Source of the DNA: Deltaproteobacteria bacterium
Lineage (GTDB): Bacteria; Desulfobacterota; Desulfobacteria; Desulfobacterales; SpSt-501
Direction: 5' to 3'
DNA length: 44,283 nucleotides
NCBI GenBank assembly: GCA_016219005.1
Contig: JACRCN010000066.1
Location: 1-44,283, forward strand
Shown here piece after piece: positions 1,448 to 8,345 of the stretch (positions within the stretch are counted from its first letter, which is position 1; each line of letters opens with the position of its first letter). The position numbers were made by a program, and so were the translations under genes. The notes under the pieces are model-generated. The model did no database searches. It was given only the letters and a program-made list of their open reading frames with translations, and was not told where the DNA came from.

Positions 1448-1866
1448 TCCGATGACCTTGGATCAGACAGAGCCCTCCGCTGATCAAAGAGCGTATTGCC
1501 TCTGAGAGAAGCCATGCAGATGTTTCGAGGAGCTTGACAATCATCAACAACTAGCCTATGTTTATCATTGCCTAATTCCGGCAACCGCCGGGAGCGGGGG
1601 ACCCAGGTTTTTGGGGCGCATCGCCAATTGGCGACGGATAACCTCTTCGGTCCTAGCCCTGCAGCTAACCTCGTAGGCGTCGATGAGGAAAACCTTCGGA
1701 ATTGAACGGGGGGCTTTCCTCGACCATTTCGATTCCGGAGGTTTAGGACATGCCTTCTGCGTATCACCCGTTGCACACGCCGCATTCCTGCCTCCTTCAA
1801 GACCCGTCAACACCCCGAGACAGACGTCATTGCAGGCTTCGCGATCCAAGGAAGTCATCCTACCTC
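1448..1866. other. 419-bp stretch without a recognisable gene
   Basis: Between the FAD oxidoreductase and the FG-GAP lipoprotein. Short open frames exist on both strands, the longest on the minus strand (about 1565-1858), but none has a convincing ribosome-binding site or a motif I know. No T-tailed hairpin follows the oxidoreductase. The last bases hold the likely ribosome-binding site of the next gene (AAGGAAG at 1848-1854). It may contain decayed coding sequence. Confidence 0.5.
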
Positions 1867-3651
1867 GTGACAGCTGAAACCTTTACGACGATAATTGCGC
1901 GCGCATTTATTCTCCTGGCCGTTTGCGCAACCGTCATGAGCTGCGGCGGCGGCAGCGGAGGTTCCAGTGAGAGCGCCAACGGAAGCAGTGCGCCTGCTGT
2001 CGACGGCAGCGCCACCGGTGGGGAGCGCAACCCCGTTTGCGTTGCCGGCATGAGCAGCGGTGAAGTCACCCGGCCGCAGTTTCTCATGAACCTGCAAGGC
2101 CAAACCAGTTGGTATGCATCGCCGGTAGTCGCCGACCTGGACGGGGATGGGGTAAATGAGCTCATCGCGGCCTATTATTCGGTCTACGTCTTCGCCGCGG
2201 ACGGCTCGCTACTTTCCCGGGCCGATGGCGGCAGCGGCCGCATCTACGCCCCCCACGTGGTGGTCGACCTGGAAGGAGACGGCATTCCTGAAATCGTCTA
2301 TGGCAGCGGGCATGAGGTCTATGCCTACGAATGGAAAAACGGCGGACTAAGCCTCAAAGCCGGATGGCCGGCAGATACCACCACGGCCGGAGAATCCCCG
2401 GAGGTGCGCGGGTTGGCCGCCGCCGATCTCGACGGCGACGGGCTTATCGAGATCGTGGCCACGACCACCCAGACCCAAAGCACAAGCGCCGGCGGTGCCC
2501 AGGTTTTCGTTTTTTCAAGCAACGGCGCCCTTTTTCAACCCGCCGGCCTGAGTTTTCCCGCCTGGCCACGCTACAACTACCGCACCGGCACCGGAGGGGA
2601 CGCCGACCGCAACGGCCAAGGGCATTCGGGTTACGGCTGCTATGGGCTCAACGTCGCTATCGGCAACATTGACGACGATGACGACTTGGAGATCATCGTC
2701 ACTTATGACAATCATGAAATCCAGGCCTTCAAACTCAACGGCGTTGCCATTGAAGCCTCCTCCTGGTTCACCAATCCTTCGAGCCAGTTCCTGGGCAACC
2801 GCATGACATGGGGACAGTTCATCCGCTGGGCCGATCCTCAGGTGGAGGAGAACCACTACCACCTGCACGTCGGCGACTGGCCACACCCCAGTGTCCAGGA
2901 GTGGCTGCAGTGGACCGCATCCCCGCCGAACATCGTCGACCTGGACGGCGACGGCAAAAACGAAGTCGTGGGGGTCCCCAACGTTGAGAAAAATGTGCCT
3001 TACGTGACCCAGGCTTACGCGATCATGGTTCTCGAAGGCGCCCACGGCGACGGCAGCCGCTCGGCCATGCGCAAAAGTGGCTGGGAAACGCTGCCCAGAG
3101 GCGCAGCCCCGATATCGGTGGACGGATGGTATCCGCCCAATGGCATCCCTGCGCCGACCACGCTCAATATCCAGGGCGACAGCCGGCCGGAGATTATCGT
3201 CTCCCTTAACGACGGGTTCATGCACGCCTTCAGCGCCGAGGCCCGGGAGATCTGGCGTTTCAACTTCACCCATGGCAAAGCGGTGATGTATGCTTCGGAG
3301 GCAACCATAGCGGATCTCAACCAGGACGGCTCCCCGGAGATCCTTTTCACAACCTACGGAGACCCTGATGTGACGGACTCTGGGTATCTGGTGATTCTAG
3401 GCGCGGACGGCCGCCTGCTGCATGACGTCGCTCTTCCCGATCCCGGCCGCGACGGTAACGGCAATGGCGCTCCAGCCGCCCCGGCGGTCTACGATCTCAA
3501 CGGCGACGGTCAACTGGAAGTCTTCGTCCAGACGTTCGAGCATGGCATGGACGTGTTTACGGTTCCGGGGTCCGCCTGCAACTGTATGCCTTGGCCTACC
3601 GCCCGCGGTGGACCTCTGCGCATGGGCCAGCCGAGCGGAAACGATCTGTGA
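1867..3651 (+). CDS. FG-GAP/VCBS-repeat lipoprotein with calcium loops
   Basis: About 594 residues. The N-terminal hydrophobic stretch (RAFILLAVCATVMSC) ends in a lipobox-like cysteine followed by a Gly/Ser-rich linker, so the protein is probably an exported lipoprotein. The body contains at least eight repeats with a calcium-loop pattern D-x-D-x-D-G followed by [E]-[IV]-[IV], for example DLDGDGVNELIAAY, DLEGDGIPEIVYG, DLDGDGLIEIVAT, DLDGDGKNEVVGV, DLNQDGSPEILFT and DLNGDGQLEVFVQ. This is the FG-GAP/integrin-alpha-like beta-propeller pattern used for extracellular binding. Two loops are altered (NIDDDDDLEIIVT, NIQGDSRPEIIVS). A GTG start at 1867 is preferred because it places the signal peptide at the N-terminus and has AAGGAAG 12 bp upstream; a longer in-frame start at 1750 would bury the signal. 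The ligand is unknown. Confidence 0.8.
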   Translation: MTAETFTTIIARAFILLAVCATVMSCGGGSGGSSESANGSSAPAVDGSATGGERNPVCVAGMSSGEVTRPQFLMNLQGQTSWYASPVVADLDGDGVNELIAAYYSVYVFAADGSLLSRADGGSGRIYAPHVVVDLEGDGIPEIVYGSGHEVYAYEWKNGGLSLKAGWPADTTTAGESPEVRGLAAADLDGDGLIEIVATTTQTQSTSAGGAQVFVFSSNGALFQPAGLSFPAWPRYNYRTGTGGDADRNGQGHSGYGCYGLNVAIGNIDDDDDLEIIVTYDNHEIQAFKLNGVAIEASSWFTNPSSQFLGNRMTWGQFIRWADPQVEENHYHLHVGDWPHPSVQEWLQWTASPPNIVDLDGDGKNEVVGVPNVEKNVPYVTQAYAIMVLEGAHGDGSRSAMRKSGWETLPRGAAPISVDGWYPPNGIPAPTTLNIQGDSRPEIIVSLNDGFMHAFSAEAREIWRFNFTHGKAVMYASEATIADLNQDGSPEILFTTYGDPDVTDSGYLVILGADGRLLHDVALPDPGRDGNGNGAPAAPAVYDLNGDGQLEVFVQTFEHGMDVFTVPGSACNCMPWPTARGGPLRMGQPSGNDL

Positions 3652-3748: not shown

Positions 3749-4726
3749 ATGAAGATTGGTTTTGCCTTAATCCGCAAGGAAGCAGACGCTTGCCTCTCGC
3801 AGGGCCTGCATGAAGAGGCTCTGGGGTTATATGCCAAGTTTATTGCCGGCTCGGCCAAAATTGACCCGGGCATCAAATCCGCTATCGAAAAGGAAATCCA
3901 GCGTATCGAGTTGAAGATGAGCTGCGGCGATACCGGAGCGATCCCGGAACCCTCTGCCGGTCGAATCGACCCGATCAAAGATGCCTGGGGGATGCGTGCC
4001 ATCGAATCCGATCTTCCCGCATGCGTCCAGGACCTGGTCCGACCCCCGGGACGCAGCCAGAAGCATGCATCCGACATCAGCGCTGCAGATTGGGCTGACG
4101 GCATGGTCGATATTTATGCTTTGGTTGCAAACGACAAGGACCACCCATCCTCGGAGGACTTGAAAGGAAGGCCCTCTTTTGATGATCCTGAAGATCCGAA
4201 GATATTGCTTAACCGAGATTCGCCCGAAAGAAAGCGTTTTCATCGAGATTATGCAGCAACGTCATTTCTTGGAATTATCGCGGCGTTCGTGCTGGTAGGG
4301 AGCATTTTGATTTATTCCGGTGATTGGTTCTCTGAAATTAAGCGAAATAAAAGTGCGGAGGTGGTTCAAGACGCAGCCAAAATTGTTTTTAAAAAAACGC
4401 CGGCGCTTGTTGGCAAGGAGCATATGTCCGCTTTGCCCGATAACGGAATGGAGGATCAGAGCGCCATGCGGTCCGGGGAGACGGCGATCAGTGGAGATGC
4501 TGCGTCCCTGGTTGATCCGGATGGGACACAAGCTGGAGTCAAGACCCCCTCGTCTCCCGCCAATGATGAGAGAACAGCAAATAGAACCCCCGGCGACGAA
4601 GTCAAAGAAGATGGAGCTAGCTATTCCGAAATGCCGGCTGTCGAAAATAAAGACATCGGGACCGCACCGGAAGAACCGGATCCGGCTTCGGTGATTGATT
4701 ATGTCCTCAAAAAGCGCAGGTTTTAA
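3749..4726 (+). CDS. Unknown single-pass membrane protein, TPR-like N-terminus
   Basis: A 325-residue protein I cannot name. Residues 1-58 look like a pair of alpha-helices of tetratricopeptide type (EADACLSQGLHEEALGLYAK), followed by a charged region. One hydrophobic helix at about 170-190 (TSFLGIIAAFVLVGSILIYS) follows a basic stretch (ERKRFHR), which suggests the N-terminal part is cytoplasmic. After the helix comes a low-complexity acidic, Pro/Ser/Thr-rich tail of about 130 residues, probably disordered and extracytoplasmic. There is no catalytic motif. It lies 328 bp upstream of the receiver-like/BTAD regulator on the same strand and could belong to the same system; this is inference from position only. 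The ribosome-binding site is weak. Confidence 0.65.
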   Translation: MKIGFALIRKEADACLSQGLHEEALGLYAKFIAGSAKIDPGIKSAIEKEIQRIELKMSCGDTGAIPEPSAGRIDPIKDAWGMRAIESDLPACVQDLVRPPGRSQKHASDISAADWADGMVDIYALVANDKDHPSSEDLKGRPSFDDPEDPKILLNRDSPERKRFHRDYAATSFLGIIAAFVLVGSILIYSGDWFSEIKRNKSAEVVQDAAKIVFKKTPALVGKEHMSALPDNGMEDQSAMRSGETAISGDAASLVDPDGTQAGVKTPSSPANDERTANRTPGDEVKEDGASYSEMPAVENKDIGTAPEEPDPASVIDYVLKKRRF

Positions 4727-5054
4727 CCTTAATAATTTCCTGGCATCGAATGGGCATGGCTTCGATGCAGGCTCGTGTCAACTCGCTGCAGTGCGGAAGT
4801 TTGCTTTGCTGAAAGCAGAGCAGCGGCGCACATCCAAATTCCACCCGCTTTCTCCATCTGGCCATGCCGAGCGCGGTCGGTCCTAAGCCGATTCAATTTT
4901 AGAAACAGGCTCTCCAACCATCTCCGACGGGCGCACCAACCTGGATGTCATCGCACCGGGACTCACAGCAGGCGGTGGTGAGAGCGATTCCAATCCCAAC
5001 GCTTTCTCCGGTAATCTCCCGTGCCGTGATTGCCGGCTTCAACCGGTTACCGCC
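4727..5054. other. 328-bp intergenic stretch before the BTAD regulator
   Basis: No recognisable gene, tRNA or terminator. The frame of the downstream regulator stays open upstream of its ATG to a TAA near 4885, but it contains no ATG, GTG or TTG, so the ATG at 5055 is the first possible start. That start lacks a good Shine-Dalgarno sequence. The promoter of the regulator probably lies here, but I cannot point to a convincing one. Confidence 0.4.
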
Positions 5055-6512
5055 ATGGATCGTGAGCCACCCGCCAACTCTCCGAATCCATCAACTATCC
5101 TCGTGGTTGATCCGGATGATAGGATCTACAAAGCATTTTGGGCCACTTTAGGCTCCCGGTATCATCTGGTTTTTACGCCCAACGAAGCGCTGGCAAACCT
5201 GATCATCAATGATTTTCCTTTCGCCATGGTGTTCGTCGGCCAGAACTCGACGACCCAATCCGATAGTTTGCTTATCCGGACCCTTAAAGCCGAGCAGCCT
5301 TCCATTCCGATCGTCTTCATCGCCAAAAAGCCGACGGCGGACCTTATTCTATCTTCATTCAGGGCCGGTGCCAGAGATATCATTACGGCTCCGATTGAAC
5401 CGGAAGAGTTGATGTATATCACGGAGCGAATTGCTACCCTGAGGCTGACAGGGCGAACTTCCGATAATTTGCCGCCGTCATCTGCGCGTTTCAATTTAAG
5501 GAACCTTTGGTCCCAGTTGCGATACGGAAGCCAAGGCTATGTTGAAATCGGAATGCAGATGGAGCGGCAAGCGTCTTCTCTTGAAAACGGCACGGGCTCC
5601 GACGATTCCACTTTAGTTGACCGGCTGCGCGATGCGCCGGCCAAGGTCGTGAGGGCGTTGGAGCATAGAACGGATAAGGTTTCGGGGTGGGTGGATACGG
5701 CGGGCATGCGTGTCTATTTCCTGGGCCACTTCCGTACCATCATAAATGGTCAAATGGCGGATGAGTGGCCGAGCAAAAAGGGCAAATCTCTTTTTGCGTA
5801 CCTTTCTTATCATTACAACAAACCCATTTTTCGCGATGTGCTCATGGACGTTTTCTGGCCCAAGTCGATGGCGGAATCGGCGCGCAACAGCCTGAACGTG
5901 GTGATTCATGGTTTACGAAAACGGCTTCAGCAGTTTGACACGGCAAGAGAATACATCATCTTCAAGAATGAGTGCTATTGCATTAATCCGGAGATCGGCA
6001 TTTGGACCGATGTCGACGAGCTCAGAGCGCTCTGGCGGAAAGGCCGGGCTGTCGAAAAAAATAAGGGGCTTGAGGCGGCGGTGGAATTCTACGACCAAAT
6101 TGCCGCCATCTACAGCGGCGATTTCATGTCCGATGAATTATATGAGGATTGGTCCACGCTTGAAAGAGAAAACCTGAAAGAGATTTTTCTGGTCACTCTT
6201 GAAAAAATCAGCGAGAACCGATTTCGCTTGGGCAACCTTGCCGAGGCGATCAGCATTTGCAAAGCCATTCTGGGAAGAGACGGCTGCCGTGAAGAAATAT
6301 ACCGCCGCTTGATGTGCTGTTACCAAAAAACCGGGCGCCGGGACAAAGCCTTGCTGGCCTATCGCAAATGTGTCCATGCGTTGAAGACCGAACTCGATGT
6401 CGCCCCAGCGGCTGCTACGATTGAGTTATATAAGAAAATCAAAACCGATGCACCCGACCCATGTGAATCTCTTAGGCCGGGTGCTGCCGCGCGCCTGCCC
6501 AAAGCCAGCTGA
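5055..6512 (+). CDS. SARP/BTAD-type regulator with a degenerate receiver domain
   Basis: A 485-residue regulator. Residues about 14-125 fold like a response-regulator receiver: acidic pocket VVDPDD, a beta-3 strand at AMVFVGQN and helix 4 at SFRAGARDIITAPIEP. The phospho-accepting Asp (usually LLDLxMP) and the conserved Lys (usually TKPF, here TAPI) are missing, so phosphorylation seems unlikely. Residues about 217-470 are an AfsR/DnrI (SARP) type output: a winged helix (VYFLGHFRTIINGQ, WPSKKGKSLFAYLSYHY, SARNSLNVVIHGLRKRL) followed by the bacterial transcriptional activation domain of TPR helices. SARPs are best known from actinobacteria, where they activate secondary metabolism. Here the regulator precedes two unknown genes on the same strand, its most obvious candidate targets. 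Confidence 0.88.
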   Translation: MDREPPANSPNPSTILVVDPDDRIYKAFWATLGSRYHLVFTPNEALANLIINDFPFAMVFVGQNSTTQSDSLLIRTLKAEQPSIPIVFIAKKPTADLILSSFRAGARDIITAPIEPEELMYITERIATLRLTGRTSDNLPPSSARFNLRNLWSQLRYGSQGYVEIGMQMERQASSLENGTGSDDSTLVDRLRDAPAKVVRALEHRTDKVSGWVDTAGMRVYFLGHFRTIINGQMADEWPSKKGKSLFAYLSYHYNKPIFRDVLMDVFWPKSMAESARNSLNVVIHGLRKRLQQFDTAREYIIFKNECYCINPEIGIWTDVDELRALWRKGRAVEKNKGLEAAVEFYDQIAAIYSGDFMSDELYEDWSTLERENLKEIFLVTLEKISENRFRLGNLAEAISICKAILGRDGCREEIYRRLMCCYQKTGRRDKALLAYRKCVHALKTELDVAPAAATIELYKKIKTDAPDPCESLRPGAAARLPKAS

Positions 6513-6576
6513 CCCCAACCGGCCGAAACTGAATAACCCAACATTAATCAACAAATAATTCTATTTTAAGTGTCCT

Positions 6577-6594
6577 ATAATTAGCCATAATTAT
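6577..6594. promoter_or_regulatory. AT-rich inverted repeat upstream of the 6701 gene
   Basis: ATAATTA (6577-6583), GCCA, TAATTAT (6588-6594): a perfect 7-bp inverted repeat inside an AT-rich island between the BTAD regulator and the next gene, about 105 bp before that gene's ATG. It could be an operator or part of a promoter. Only the symmetry is observed. Confidence 0.3.
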
Positions 6595-6700
6595 GATGGA
6601 TCAGGTTCGTCCAACCGACCCTCTTCAATTGCTAATGGGAACCCGTTTATTGCGGCGACGAACCAGTTCCGATTAGCACCCTTGGCAAAGGAGGCATCCT

Positions 6701-7165
6701 ATGTCCGGCCAACCACAAGCAGCACCATGGATCTCGTTCAACGTAACCGGGTTAACCGTCACCGAACCACCTCCAACACTTGCGCCCAGCACCATCATCC
6801 CGAGGACAGGCTCGTTTGTAATGAGCGCACAGTACGCGATTGACTTCGTCTTCGGAAAAGGGCTGAATGACTTGATCGTCGGGGGGCTGCCGGTATTCGA
6901 GTACAACGTAACCTACTTCGCGGAAAGCATTGGGCCCGGCGCCGAGTGGAGCGGGACGCCACCGGCGATATCGTGCATTCTGGGCAATTACACGTATGGC
7001 GCCCCGCAAACAAGCCTTACGGTGTCTGCCATGAGTCTGACGCCCGGAACCTACCGCACCACGTGTGTTGCGAAAATGTCGCCGCGCGGAGGCGGCAGCG
7101 GCGGGTTCCCGTTCCATGTGGTAGGGTTCGTGGAGGGACCCATGATAGAAATCTACCAGCCCTAA
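6701..7165 (+). CDS. Unknown protein, beta-rich (154 aa)
   Basis: A 154-residue protein that I do not recognise. It has a strong ribosome-binding site (AAAGGAGG, about 7 bp before the ATG). There is no signal peptide, transmembrane helix or charged catalytic motif. Composition is rich in Gly, Pro, Ser, Thr and aromatics with alternating hydrophobic residues, as in a beta-sandwich. The last 60 residues (LTVSAMSLTPGTYRTTCVAKM, then FPFHVVGFVEGPMIEIY) have the same order of elements as the C-terminus of the 251-residue protein encoded next (LTASIHSEPLPSGTYRLEADATF, then SRLVHV), suggesting a shared domain. It follows the BTAD regulator on the same strand and may be controlled by it. The domain kinship is my own reading by eye. 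Confidence 0.65.
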   Translation: MSGQPQAAPWISFNVTGLTVTEPPPTLAPSTIIPRTGSFVMSAQYAIDFVFGKGLNDLIVGGLPVFEYNVTYFAESIGPGAEWSGTPPAISCILGNYTYGAPQTSLTVSAMSLTPGTYRTTCVAKMSPRGGGSGGFPFHVVGFVEGPMIEIYQP

Positions 7166-7214
7166 AACGGGCAAACAGATTCGAGAATATCAATCAAACC
7201 TGGAGATCGATGTT

Positions 7215-7289
7215 ATGAAAATGCCGCGGGGCCTATTTAAATTTCCAATGGGCCCCGCACATCGCAGCCGCAAGAGGGCGAACCCATGA
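7215..7289 (+). CDS. Possible 24-residue leader peptide coupled to the next gene
   Basis: A 25-codon frame: ATG at 7215 with GGAG about 10 bp upstream, ending in a TGA that overlaps the ATG of the 251-residue protein at 7286 (ATGA). The peptide is short, basic and Pro-rich (MKMPRGLFKF..., ending RSRKRANP). A GC-rich hairpin (7226-7258) lies inside it. The exact stop/start overlap is the type used for translational coupling, so this may be a leader controlling the downstream gene. It could also be chance, because the frame is short. Confidence 0.3.
   Translation: MKMPRGLFKFPMGPAHRSRKRANP
7226..7258 (+). promoter_or_regulatory. GC-rich hairpin before the 7286 gene
   Basis: GCGGGGCC (7226-7233) and GGCCCCGC (7251-7258) are perfect 8-base complements around a 17-base AT-rich loop. 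No T-run follows, so this is not an intrinsic terminator. It ends about 15 bases before the AGAGGG ribosome-binding site of the 251-residue protein and lies inside the possible leader peptide. An attenuation or mRNA-stability role is possible. Confidence 0.45.
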
Positions 7290-8041
7290 AAAACCATGAG
7301 AAGCGCCATAAGGAATTATCCGGCACTGAGGTGAAAAGAGACCGCAAGAAGGAATCAGGCGAAGAGGGATTCAAGGAAGACTTAAAACCTGAGAGCCATG
7401 CGCCTTTTGACGCGGATGAGGATACGACCGCTCGGATTTCTTTCCTAATCGATTTTTCACTTGCCGAAGGGCAAATCGAGGGAAGAATCATTCACCGCCT
7501 GACAAATAAGCACATGAAATTCGTTGGCCTCGATCAGACCGCCATCAGCCAGTTCATGAAGAAATATCTGTCGCGTCTGGATAAGAGCGTGGTGAGAGCG
7601 ACAGAAAGAGAGCAAGTTCCATCGACTGATTATCAAGATGCCGAAAAAGAGGAAGCGGCGGCGGCCTCGAATGAGATCCGGACAAAAAGTTTTCTCGTTA
7701 TTCCAGCCGGCGCGGCGCAGCCGACGGAAATATTGCAGCAAGGGCAACCTTTTCAAGTGCAATGGTGTTTCGATCCGCCAGCGAGCCTGTCCGTGCGGGG
7801 GCAGCACATGAATTACAAAGTCAGCATATGCCGGAAAAAACTTGCCAGTGGGCACCGTGAGGTGGTGGGTGAAATCGAGGGGGACGTCGCCTGCAGCGAA
7901 GCGTTGACCGCAAGCATTCACTCGGAACCGCTGCCTTCCGGGACCTATCGCCTCGAAGCAGATGCCACATTCAGCTTAAAGGGCAGAAAGCCCGACTGGA
8001 GTGGTGTCTGCCGCGACAGTCGCCTGGTGCATGTGGCTTGA
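7286..8041 (+). CDS. Unknown protein, charged N-terminus and beta-rich C-terminus (251 aa)
   Basis: A 251-residue cytoplasmic-looking protein that I do not recognise. The first 45 residues are very rich in Lys, Glu and Arg (KNHEKRHKELSGTEVKRDRK) and probably disordered. The middle (ARISFLIDFSLAEGQIEGRI) looks like an alpha/beta segment followed by another charged linker. The C-terminal half (from about residue 130) is beta-rich and ends with LPSGTYRLEADATF and SRLVHV, resembling the end of the 154-residue protein encoded upstream. The ribosome-binding site is AGAGGG at 7273-7278. The pair may have arisen by duplication of a C-terminal domain and may be a target of the BTAD regulator. No enzyme motif or membrane segment is visible. 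Confidence 0.65.
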   Translation: MKNHEKRHKELSGTEVKRDRKKESGEEGFKEDLKPESHAPFDADEDTTARISFLIDFSLAEGQIEGRIIHRLTNKHMKFVGLDQTAISQFMKKYLSRLDKSVVRATEREQVPSTDYQDAEKEEAAAASNEIRTKSFLVIPAGAAQPTEILQQGQPFQVQWCFDPPASLSVRGQHMNYKVSICRKKLASGHREVVGEIEGDVACSEALTASIHSEPLPSGTYRLEADATFSLKGRKPDWSGVCRDSRLVHVA

Positions 8042-8111: not shown

Positions 8112-8345
8112 TCAGTTTAATTCGGGTGTCGGACTTGACGTCGTCAATGGAAAGGGGATATGCCGCCCCGCGTGCCTTACGATGGGGCTTAAATCCTTGA
8201 CCTTTGTTTCGCCTGTCAGCATGTTTATCCGGCGCTCATAGTCTTTGCAGATAGGGCAGCGGAAAATAACCCATTCCCCCTCTGAAACCGAAACGCATTC
8301 GTGGTAGCCGTACGTTGAATCCAATTCGAAATTAAGTTCAATCAT
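8112..8345 (-). CDS. Small unknown protein with a CPIC motif (77 aa)
   Basis: A 77-residue minus-strand protein. It starts with an acidic beta-strand segment (MIELNFELDSTYG) and has a single C-x-x-C pair in WVIFRCPICKDYERRINM, like half of a zinc ribbon; metal binding would need dimerisation or other ligands such as the nearby His and Cys at YHECVSV. The ribosome-binding site (GAAGGA) lies about 10 bp before the ATG. I recognise no named family. It is convergent with the plus-strand unknown genes and stands alone. Confidence rests on the ribosome-binding site and the protein-like composition. Confidence 0.5.
   Translation of the reverse strand: MIELNFELDSTYGYHECVSVSEGEWVIFRCPICKDYERRINMLTGETKVKDLSPIVRHAGRHIPFPLTTSSPTPELN

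Follow-up and report, generated by a model that had tools for sequence, protein, structure and literature searches.

The window analysed here, 44,283 nucleotides of contig JACRCN010000066.1 (positions 1 to 44,283; assembly GCA_016219005.1) from a Deltaproteobacteria bacterium of the phylum Desulfobacterota, carries at 5055-8041 three genes that we take, with slightly better than even confidence, to form one unit. The first encodes a transcription factor of the SARP type whose receiver is phosphorylation-dead; the other two encode soluble proteins, here named F1 and F2, which share a domain and travel together. Regulators of the same type stand beside relatives of F1 or F2 in some other bacteria, and the group is therefore probably a real, undescribed working unit; as far as sequence comparison can tell, the conserved association of regulator and pair is real. 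All three open reading frames (ORFs) were recovered where the first-pass annotation had placed them, and their arrangement on one strand, in the order regulator, F1, F2, supports the unit. The features concerned are the following.

5055..6512, plus strand: SARP-type regulator of 485 amino acids (aa), with pseudo-receiver, winged helix and bacterial transcriptional activator domain (BTAD); from the ORF list, Pfam and alignment.
5094..5444, plus strand: pseudo-receiver domain, residues about 14-130; from Response_reg, below its cut-off, and alignment with a response regulator of the same genome.
5706..5960, plus strand: winged-helix DNA-binding domain, residues about 218-302; from Trans_reg_C and a regulator alignment starting at residue 218.
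6006..6440, plus strand: BTAD domain; from the Pfam match.
6687-6694, plus strand: ribosome site of F1, AAAGGAGG; read in the sequence.
6701..7165, plus strand: F1, 154 aa, with one GTYR domain; from a Chloroflexota-derived F1 profile.
7286..8041, plus strand: F2, 251 aa, with a variable N-terminus, a middle part and a C-terminal GTYR domain; from a Chloroflexota-derived F2 profile.
7676..8041, plus strand: C-terminal GTYR domain of F2, common to F1; from hhalign.

The identity of the first product as a SARP/BTAD regulator, already proposed in the first-pass annotation, is well founded. Pfam recognises the BTAD at 89 bits against a curated cut-off of 22.1 (E 5e-25, residues 318-462; E 1.2e-25 in the genome-wide search), and the winged helix that lies N-terminal to it is matched by Trans_reg_C at 24.7 bits in the search of the window (E 2.4e-5; curated cut-off 26.2) and at 28.0 bits, above the cut-off, in that of the genome. 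The 485-aa product is classed as a SARP of ordinary make-up with a dead receiver. It is the sole full-length protein among three BTAD matches in its genome, the second (25.8 bits, above the cut-off) spanning 63 of 146 positions and the third (21.4 bits) falling below the cut-off; a search of viral contigs with the regulator gave no match. SARP regulators are known mainly from actinomycete antibiotic clusters. Compared with the SARP/AfsR-type BTAD regulators (PF03704 and PF00486), the window regulator has the same winged helix followed by BTAD and likewise adjoins genes presumably under its control, but it adds an N-terminal pseudo-receiver, and its neighbours are uncharacterised proteins, not antibiotic enzymes. 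Its domain order is also that of the REC-wHTH-BTAD regulators (COG3947), from which it is set apart by a receiver without the Asp, Lys and Thr. It differs from the STAND/MalT-like ATPases with a C-terminal BTAD in having no ATPase match in Pfam. In the window's phylum most of the best BTAD matches belong to long open frames (about 1000-1170 aa), two of which look STAND/MalT-like by eye, and a STAND/MalT-like BTAD protein accompanies F1 in genome G479 of the Chloroflexota (genomes and loci other than the window are given G and L numbers).

The N-terminal part of the regulator matches Response_reg at 20.5 bits (E 5.5e-4), below the curated cut-off of 30.2, and its residues were read by alignment with an ordinary response regulator of the window's own genome. 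The loss of Asp and Lys, claimed in the first-pass annotation, was confirmed: the acceptor Asp is replaced by Gly (FVD to FVG) and the conserved Lys by Ala (PKP to TAP). Also missing are the Thr, which has become Ala (VIT to FIA), and one residue of the acidic pair, which has become Pro (VVDDE to VVDPD). The residues that define a phosphorylated response regulator (acceptor Asp, Lys, Thr and acidic pair) are not preserved, and a receiver recognised by profile, here below the cut-off, with its key residues missing is what is called a pseudo-receiver. Pseudo-receivers are described in an excerpt of one report as common, the mechanisms switching them as unknown (PMC12632262), and an excerpt of another states that the atypical response regulator ChxR functions without phosphorylation (PMC3960148). 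To judge from the latter excerpt, ChxR and the window regulator have in common a phosphorylation-independent receiver and an OmpR-type output, to which the window regulator adds the BTAD; the likeness is one known here from sequence (PMC3960148). With the phosphate-accepting residues gone, the activity of the regulator would depend on how much of it is present, possibly under autoregulation, on a ligand or partner that it binds, or on constitutive dimerisation. Another proposal keeps the receiver as an active input, one that acts through heterodimerisation or ligand binding in the way of other atypical response regulators, with the BTAD part as the output. The abundance of pseudo-receivers with unknown switching mechanisms (PMC12632262, in excerpt) and the precedent of the phosphorylation-independent ChxR (PMC3960148, in excerpt) speak for this proposal, which we nevertheless consider rather unlikely: five BTAD proteins of the other loci that carry F1 relatives (module loci, described below) have no receiver-like part that could be found, the protein of G798 being cut by a contig end and the cut regulator of G479 lying outside the test, so that the input domain seems exchangeable. 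As the proposal concerns the input only, it is compatible with the three-gene unit.

The 154- and 251-residue products had been proposed to share their C-terminal part, in which F1 carries LTPGTYR and F2 LPSGTYR, and the proposal held when the relatives of both were brought in. BLASTP of one product against the other detects no similarity (best 16.5 bits). In hhalign the alignment of F2 with F1 follows the C-terminal domain for 118 columns (88%, E 2.9e-6, score 45.8), the best of 200 column shuffles scoring 22.8 and the reversed control 11.6; leaving out the window sequences gives 35% (E 4e-4) and a score of 32.3, against 21.7 for the best of 200 shuffles. Window F1 alone reaches 16% against the F2 profile made without the window (E 0.0016, score 28.2), and window F2 alone 3.5% against the corresponding F1 profile (E 0.012, score 22.0), while the F1 and F2 proteins of genome G771 match each other directly (31.5% over 73 residues, 30.8 bits). 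The first-pass annotation had named a profile comparison without similarity between the two C-terminal parts as the result that would overturn its proposal; similarity was found. We conclude from these alignments that F1 and the C-terminus of F2 share a domain, a link carried by the families and not by the two window proteins alone. Membership of the window proteins in these families is itself supported by profiles of Chloroflexota proteins made without the window, which rank F1 first (five proteins, E 2.2e-9) and F2 first (three proteins, E 1.5e-10, residues 79-229) among the 480 window ORFs that are 30 aa or longer. In each case the runner-up is the other partner, F2 scoring E 0.7 with the F1 hidden Markov model and F1 scoring E 0.034 with the F2 profile.

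Neither protein found a convincing match in Pfam, NCBIfam, PHROGs, PADLOC or PDB sequences. Simple hydropathy shows no transmembrane segment in F1 or F2, except for a marginal stretch in the F2 of G771; signal peptides were judged by eye only, and an intracellular location is therefore presumed. The single-sequence folds, in which an Ig-like or E-set beta-sandwich was looked for, are of low confidence (pLDDT 31 and 56), and a fold search gave no match at E 0.001. The F2 proteins of G798 (L153:3792-4814(-)) and G771 (L139:7255-8214(-)) bear an N-terminal helix-hairpin-helix domain that the window F2 is without. The G798 domain corresponds to one present in models of ribosomal L21 and S2, NuoE and phasin proteins, and the G771 domain finds its matches in parts of rhizobial and haloarchaeal plasmids. 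A likeness of the middle part of F2 to a stand-alone 79-aa protein of G771 is unproven: its score of 16.4 barely exceeds the best of 100 shuffles (14.8), and the middle part of the window F2 by itself reaches only E 0.023 against the others.

Among the relatives of the window's organism each of the two families occurs in the window's own genome only (1 of 96), and in the phylum F2 is likewise confined to that genome (1 of 395), F1 being found in 2 of 297; the second of these, G280 (E 0.004), was judged a chance match, its DNA being read by eye as phosphate-transporter genes. A motif scan yielded one true relative, in an Anaerolineae metagenome-assembled genome (L116, that is G479), whose protein (L116/L136) aligns with window F1 at 52.8 bits and 31% over 133 residues. 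With a two-row alignment 3 of 301 genomes of that phylum were matched, namely G479, G771 (E 2e-15) and G665, the last of which (E 0.004) was rejected, no module genes being present around the match; a three-row alignment, run on 158 genomes of the class to which G771 belongs, matched at 10 places in seven of them, G771 among these. The close F1 members, of about 141-158 aa, are those of the window, G479, G771, G798, G790 and G784, and a 205-aa subfamily occupies six places in G785, G507 and G802 (184-242 aa as read, one cut). Next to a relative of the 205-aa type in G802 (L158:1513-4697), three ORFs resemble by eye a ubiquitin-like set of E1, E2 and JAB type. An F1-family protein is also encoded in Nonomuraea gerenzanensis (L162:7932-8405(+)), and the GTYR domain therefore reaches actinomycetes; this was the only find when genome contigs, viral contigs, plasmids and phages were scanned with F1, F2 and the F1 relatives. 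The F2 of G771 matched 11 plasmid records, with the best places all in its first 118 residues, outside the GTYR domain, and these were set aside. A Paraburkholderia match to the 79-aa protein (E 0.07) overlaps a large ORF and was rejected.

The evidence that binds the regulator to the pair is its position. In all six close-family loci, those of the window and of five Chloroflexota genomes, F1 has a BTAD gene at a distance of 157-2279 bp (gaps of 188 bp in the window, 157 in G479, 1711 in G771, 1139 in G798, 2279 in G790 and 1242 in G784). The BTAD was confirmed by Pfam in the window, G771, G798, G790, G784 and the STAND protein of G479, and by a profile built in this analysis in the cut gene of G479. 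With that profile no BTAD was found in 40 control stretches (561,350 bases, 400,000 of them from G771) of G771, G784, G790 and G798, G479 being left out of the sample. In four of the six loci F2 comes after F1 in the same orientation, with 35-120 bp between them, which makes a pair ordered as in the window in three of the five Chloroflexota homologues, compared with a BTAD neighbour in all five. Four of these five also contain a small CPxC protein and two a vanadium haloperoxidase, neither of which was detected in the window. The gene orders vary: in G771 the BTAD regulator and CPxC (both plus) are followed by F2, F1 and the 79-aa protein (all minus, so that F1 precedes F2); in G798 the minus strand carries a BTAD regulator truncated at the contig end, then F1, F2 and the haloperoxidase, with no CPxC within the 7.6 kb contig; G790 has F1 and the haloperoxidase (plus), then CPxC and the BTAD regulator (minus); G784 has F1 and F2 (plus), then CPxC and the BTAD regulator (minus); and in G479 a cut BTAD regulator and F1 (minus) are followed by CPxC (plus) and a STAND-TPR-BTAD protein (minus). 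Around non-module BTAD genes no F1, F2 or CPxC was found at E 0.1 or better, in loci of which many measure just 2-4 kb. A search of plasmids with the CPxC protein gave no match. In G771 a 74-aa ORF (L139:4652-4876(-)), at about 0.7 kb from the BTAD regulator, has a leader of the double-glycine type and matches Bacteriocin_IIc at E 0.0042, below the cut-off.

The same linkage bears on the possibility that the three genes form a genomic islet that horizontal transfer has moved as a whole, with no regulatory link, the BTAD gene regulating something else. Such an islet would agree with the composition of 5055-8041 (GC 0.526, against 0.591 for 8700-44283), with the finding of F1 and F2 in no other searched genome of the phylum apart from the match at E 0.004 judged to be chance, and with the differing N-terminal make-up of the regulators that accompany F1. 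However, the linkage is kept in six genomes despite rearranged order and orientation, and passive hitch-hiking would tend to break it; the compositional signal is also weak, F1 itself having a GC of 0.591 while the neighbouring 325-aa gene (0.527) and an oxidoreductase gene (0.525) are equally low. We therefore hold the islet to be an unlikely explanation, and keep to the three-gene unit.

Two elements in the non-coding DNA could serve its control.

4905..4941, plus strand: candidate operator upstream of the regulator, a 15-nt direct repeat, 12/15 identical, start-to-start 22 bp.
6630..6678, plus strand: inverted repeat in the gap separating F1 from the regulator, shortly ahead of the ribosome site of F1, with 15/18 pairs and 13 nt between the arms.

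SARP sites follow a rule of direct heptamer repeats at 11 or 22 bp. The direct repeat upstream of the regulator, reached by 2 of 1000 shuffles at spacing 22 and by 6 of 1000 at 11 or 22, is only suggestive of an operator; among eight regions in other loci, only the one upstream of F1 in G784 shows a comparable direct repeat (11 bp, 2 of 500 shuffles), and both spacings appear to fit the rule. The inverted repeat was reached by none of 300 shuffles (RNA fold of 6600-6705, z -2.05) and is a candidate operator or leader hairpin. A scan for promoters and terminators predicted no more of them than in shuffled sequence (5 where shuffles average 4.3, and 4 where they give 6.3).

A number of observations weigh against the three-gene unit. 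F2 was not found in two of the six loci (G479 and G790). No BTAD was found at any of the six places of the 205-aa F1 subfamily (stretches of 4.2-17 kb), nor within 8 kb of F1 in Nonomuraea (0 of 1 locus), so that the link between GTYR domain and BTAD regulators across genomes, which the first-pass annotation had suggested looking for, stands for the close family and fails for the subfamily and the actinomycete. The repeat evidence is patchy, being strong in 2 of the 10 regions tested, and with a gap of 188 bp containing a hairpin between them the regulator and F1 may not form one transcript. In a tree of 56 BTAD regions the G771 regulator falls elsewhere. Topology testing rejects a single clade uniting the module regulators of all six loci (p-AU 0.016) and does not reject joining the window regulator to a group of its own phylum (p-AU 0.092). 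Moreover, the tree holds hardly any Chloroflexota BTADs unlinked to the module (one from a plasmid, and the STAND gene next to the G479 module), and the grouping that it does recover may therefore reflect descent and not the module. In favour of the unit, that grouping joins the window regulator with four of the five other module regulators (92/93, below the starred support threshold); the closest relative of the window regulator is the module regulator of G798 (37% over 240 aa), the best among the listed places in its own phylum reaching 34%. The tree makes it likely, without proving it, that this regulator type is inherited together with F1, and exchanges of regulators have probably taken place.

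The vanadium haloperoxidase that adjoins F1 or F2 in G798 (PDB 1qhb, E 2.9e-101) and G790 (58% identical to that of G798) hints at oxidative or halogenating chemistry in those two Chloroflexota genomes. It has a place in a further explanation, that of a specialised-metabolite or halogenation unit in which the SARP activates an enzyme set, the haloperoxidase being the enzyme and F1 and F2 an accessory or scaffold, much as streptomycete antibiotic clusters are activated by SARPs according to excerpts of the literature. A haloperoxidase is present at two of six loci only, none having been found among the window ORFs or in the fetched stretches of G771, G784 and G479, and we regard this explanation as very unlikely. 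Open-licence papers on SARP and vanadium-dependent haloperoxidase are, by title, enzyme papers; none was found that joins BTAD with haloperoxidase, or the bacterial transcriptional activator domain with Chloroflexi, and those on BTAD together with a receiver domain or response regulator include, by title, none on such a unit. The SARP papers listed are mainly Streptomyces work.

Upstream of the regulator lies a further gene which the first-pass annotation had considered as possibly part of the same unit.

3749..4726, plus strand: 325-aa protein with one transmembrane segment, judged from the loci of its relatives not to be part of the unit.

Its N-terminal 90 residues recur, in varied contexts, in several proteins from the genus and in a paralogue encoded by its own genome. 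No BTAD, F1, F2 or CPxC was found in the five fetched loci of 9.6-16 kb (four from the genus, one from the same genome), nor in the loci of five other relatives, of 2-3 kb, and its inclusion was given up. A 633-aa FG-GAP repeat protein is encoded at 1750-3651. The CPxC profile, run on the window ORFs, reaches at best E 0.071, at 1855-2103(-), opposite the FG-GAP gene; an ORF of 77 aa with a CPIC motif at 8112-8345(-), alike by eye, was rejected as the CPxC partner (profile E 8.5).

The three-gene unit can be given a mechanism, in which the regulator would most likely bind repeats near the unit through its winged helix and the BTAD would contact RNA polymerase, so that F1 and F2 would be switched on. 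The two proteins would then probably assemble through their shared domain, F2 adding its middle part to the complex and, in two Chloroflexota proteins, a helix-hairpin-helix domain. More tentatively, and with less than even confidence, F1-F2 may be an undescribed two-subunit intracellular system under a dedicated SARP whose input domain is exchanged between genomes (none, TPR, STAND or dead receiver), sporadic between phyla and coupled to a haloperoxidase in some hosts. The finding provides a concrete, sequence-defined candidate for a regulator and its targets, present also in Chloroflexota, and two protein families that none of the searched libraries describes; the conserved pair and the exchangeable N-terminus of the regulator make the regulon and the F1-F2 interaction directly testable.

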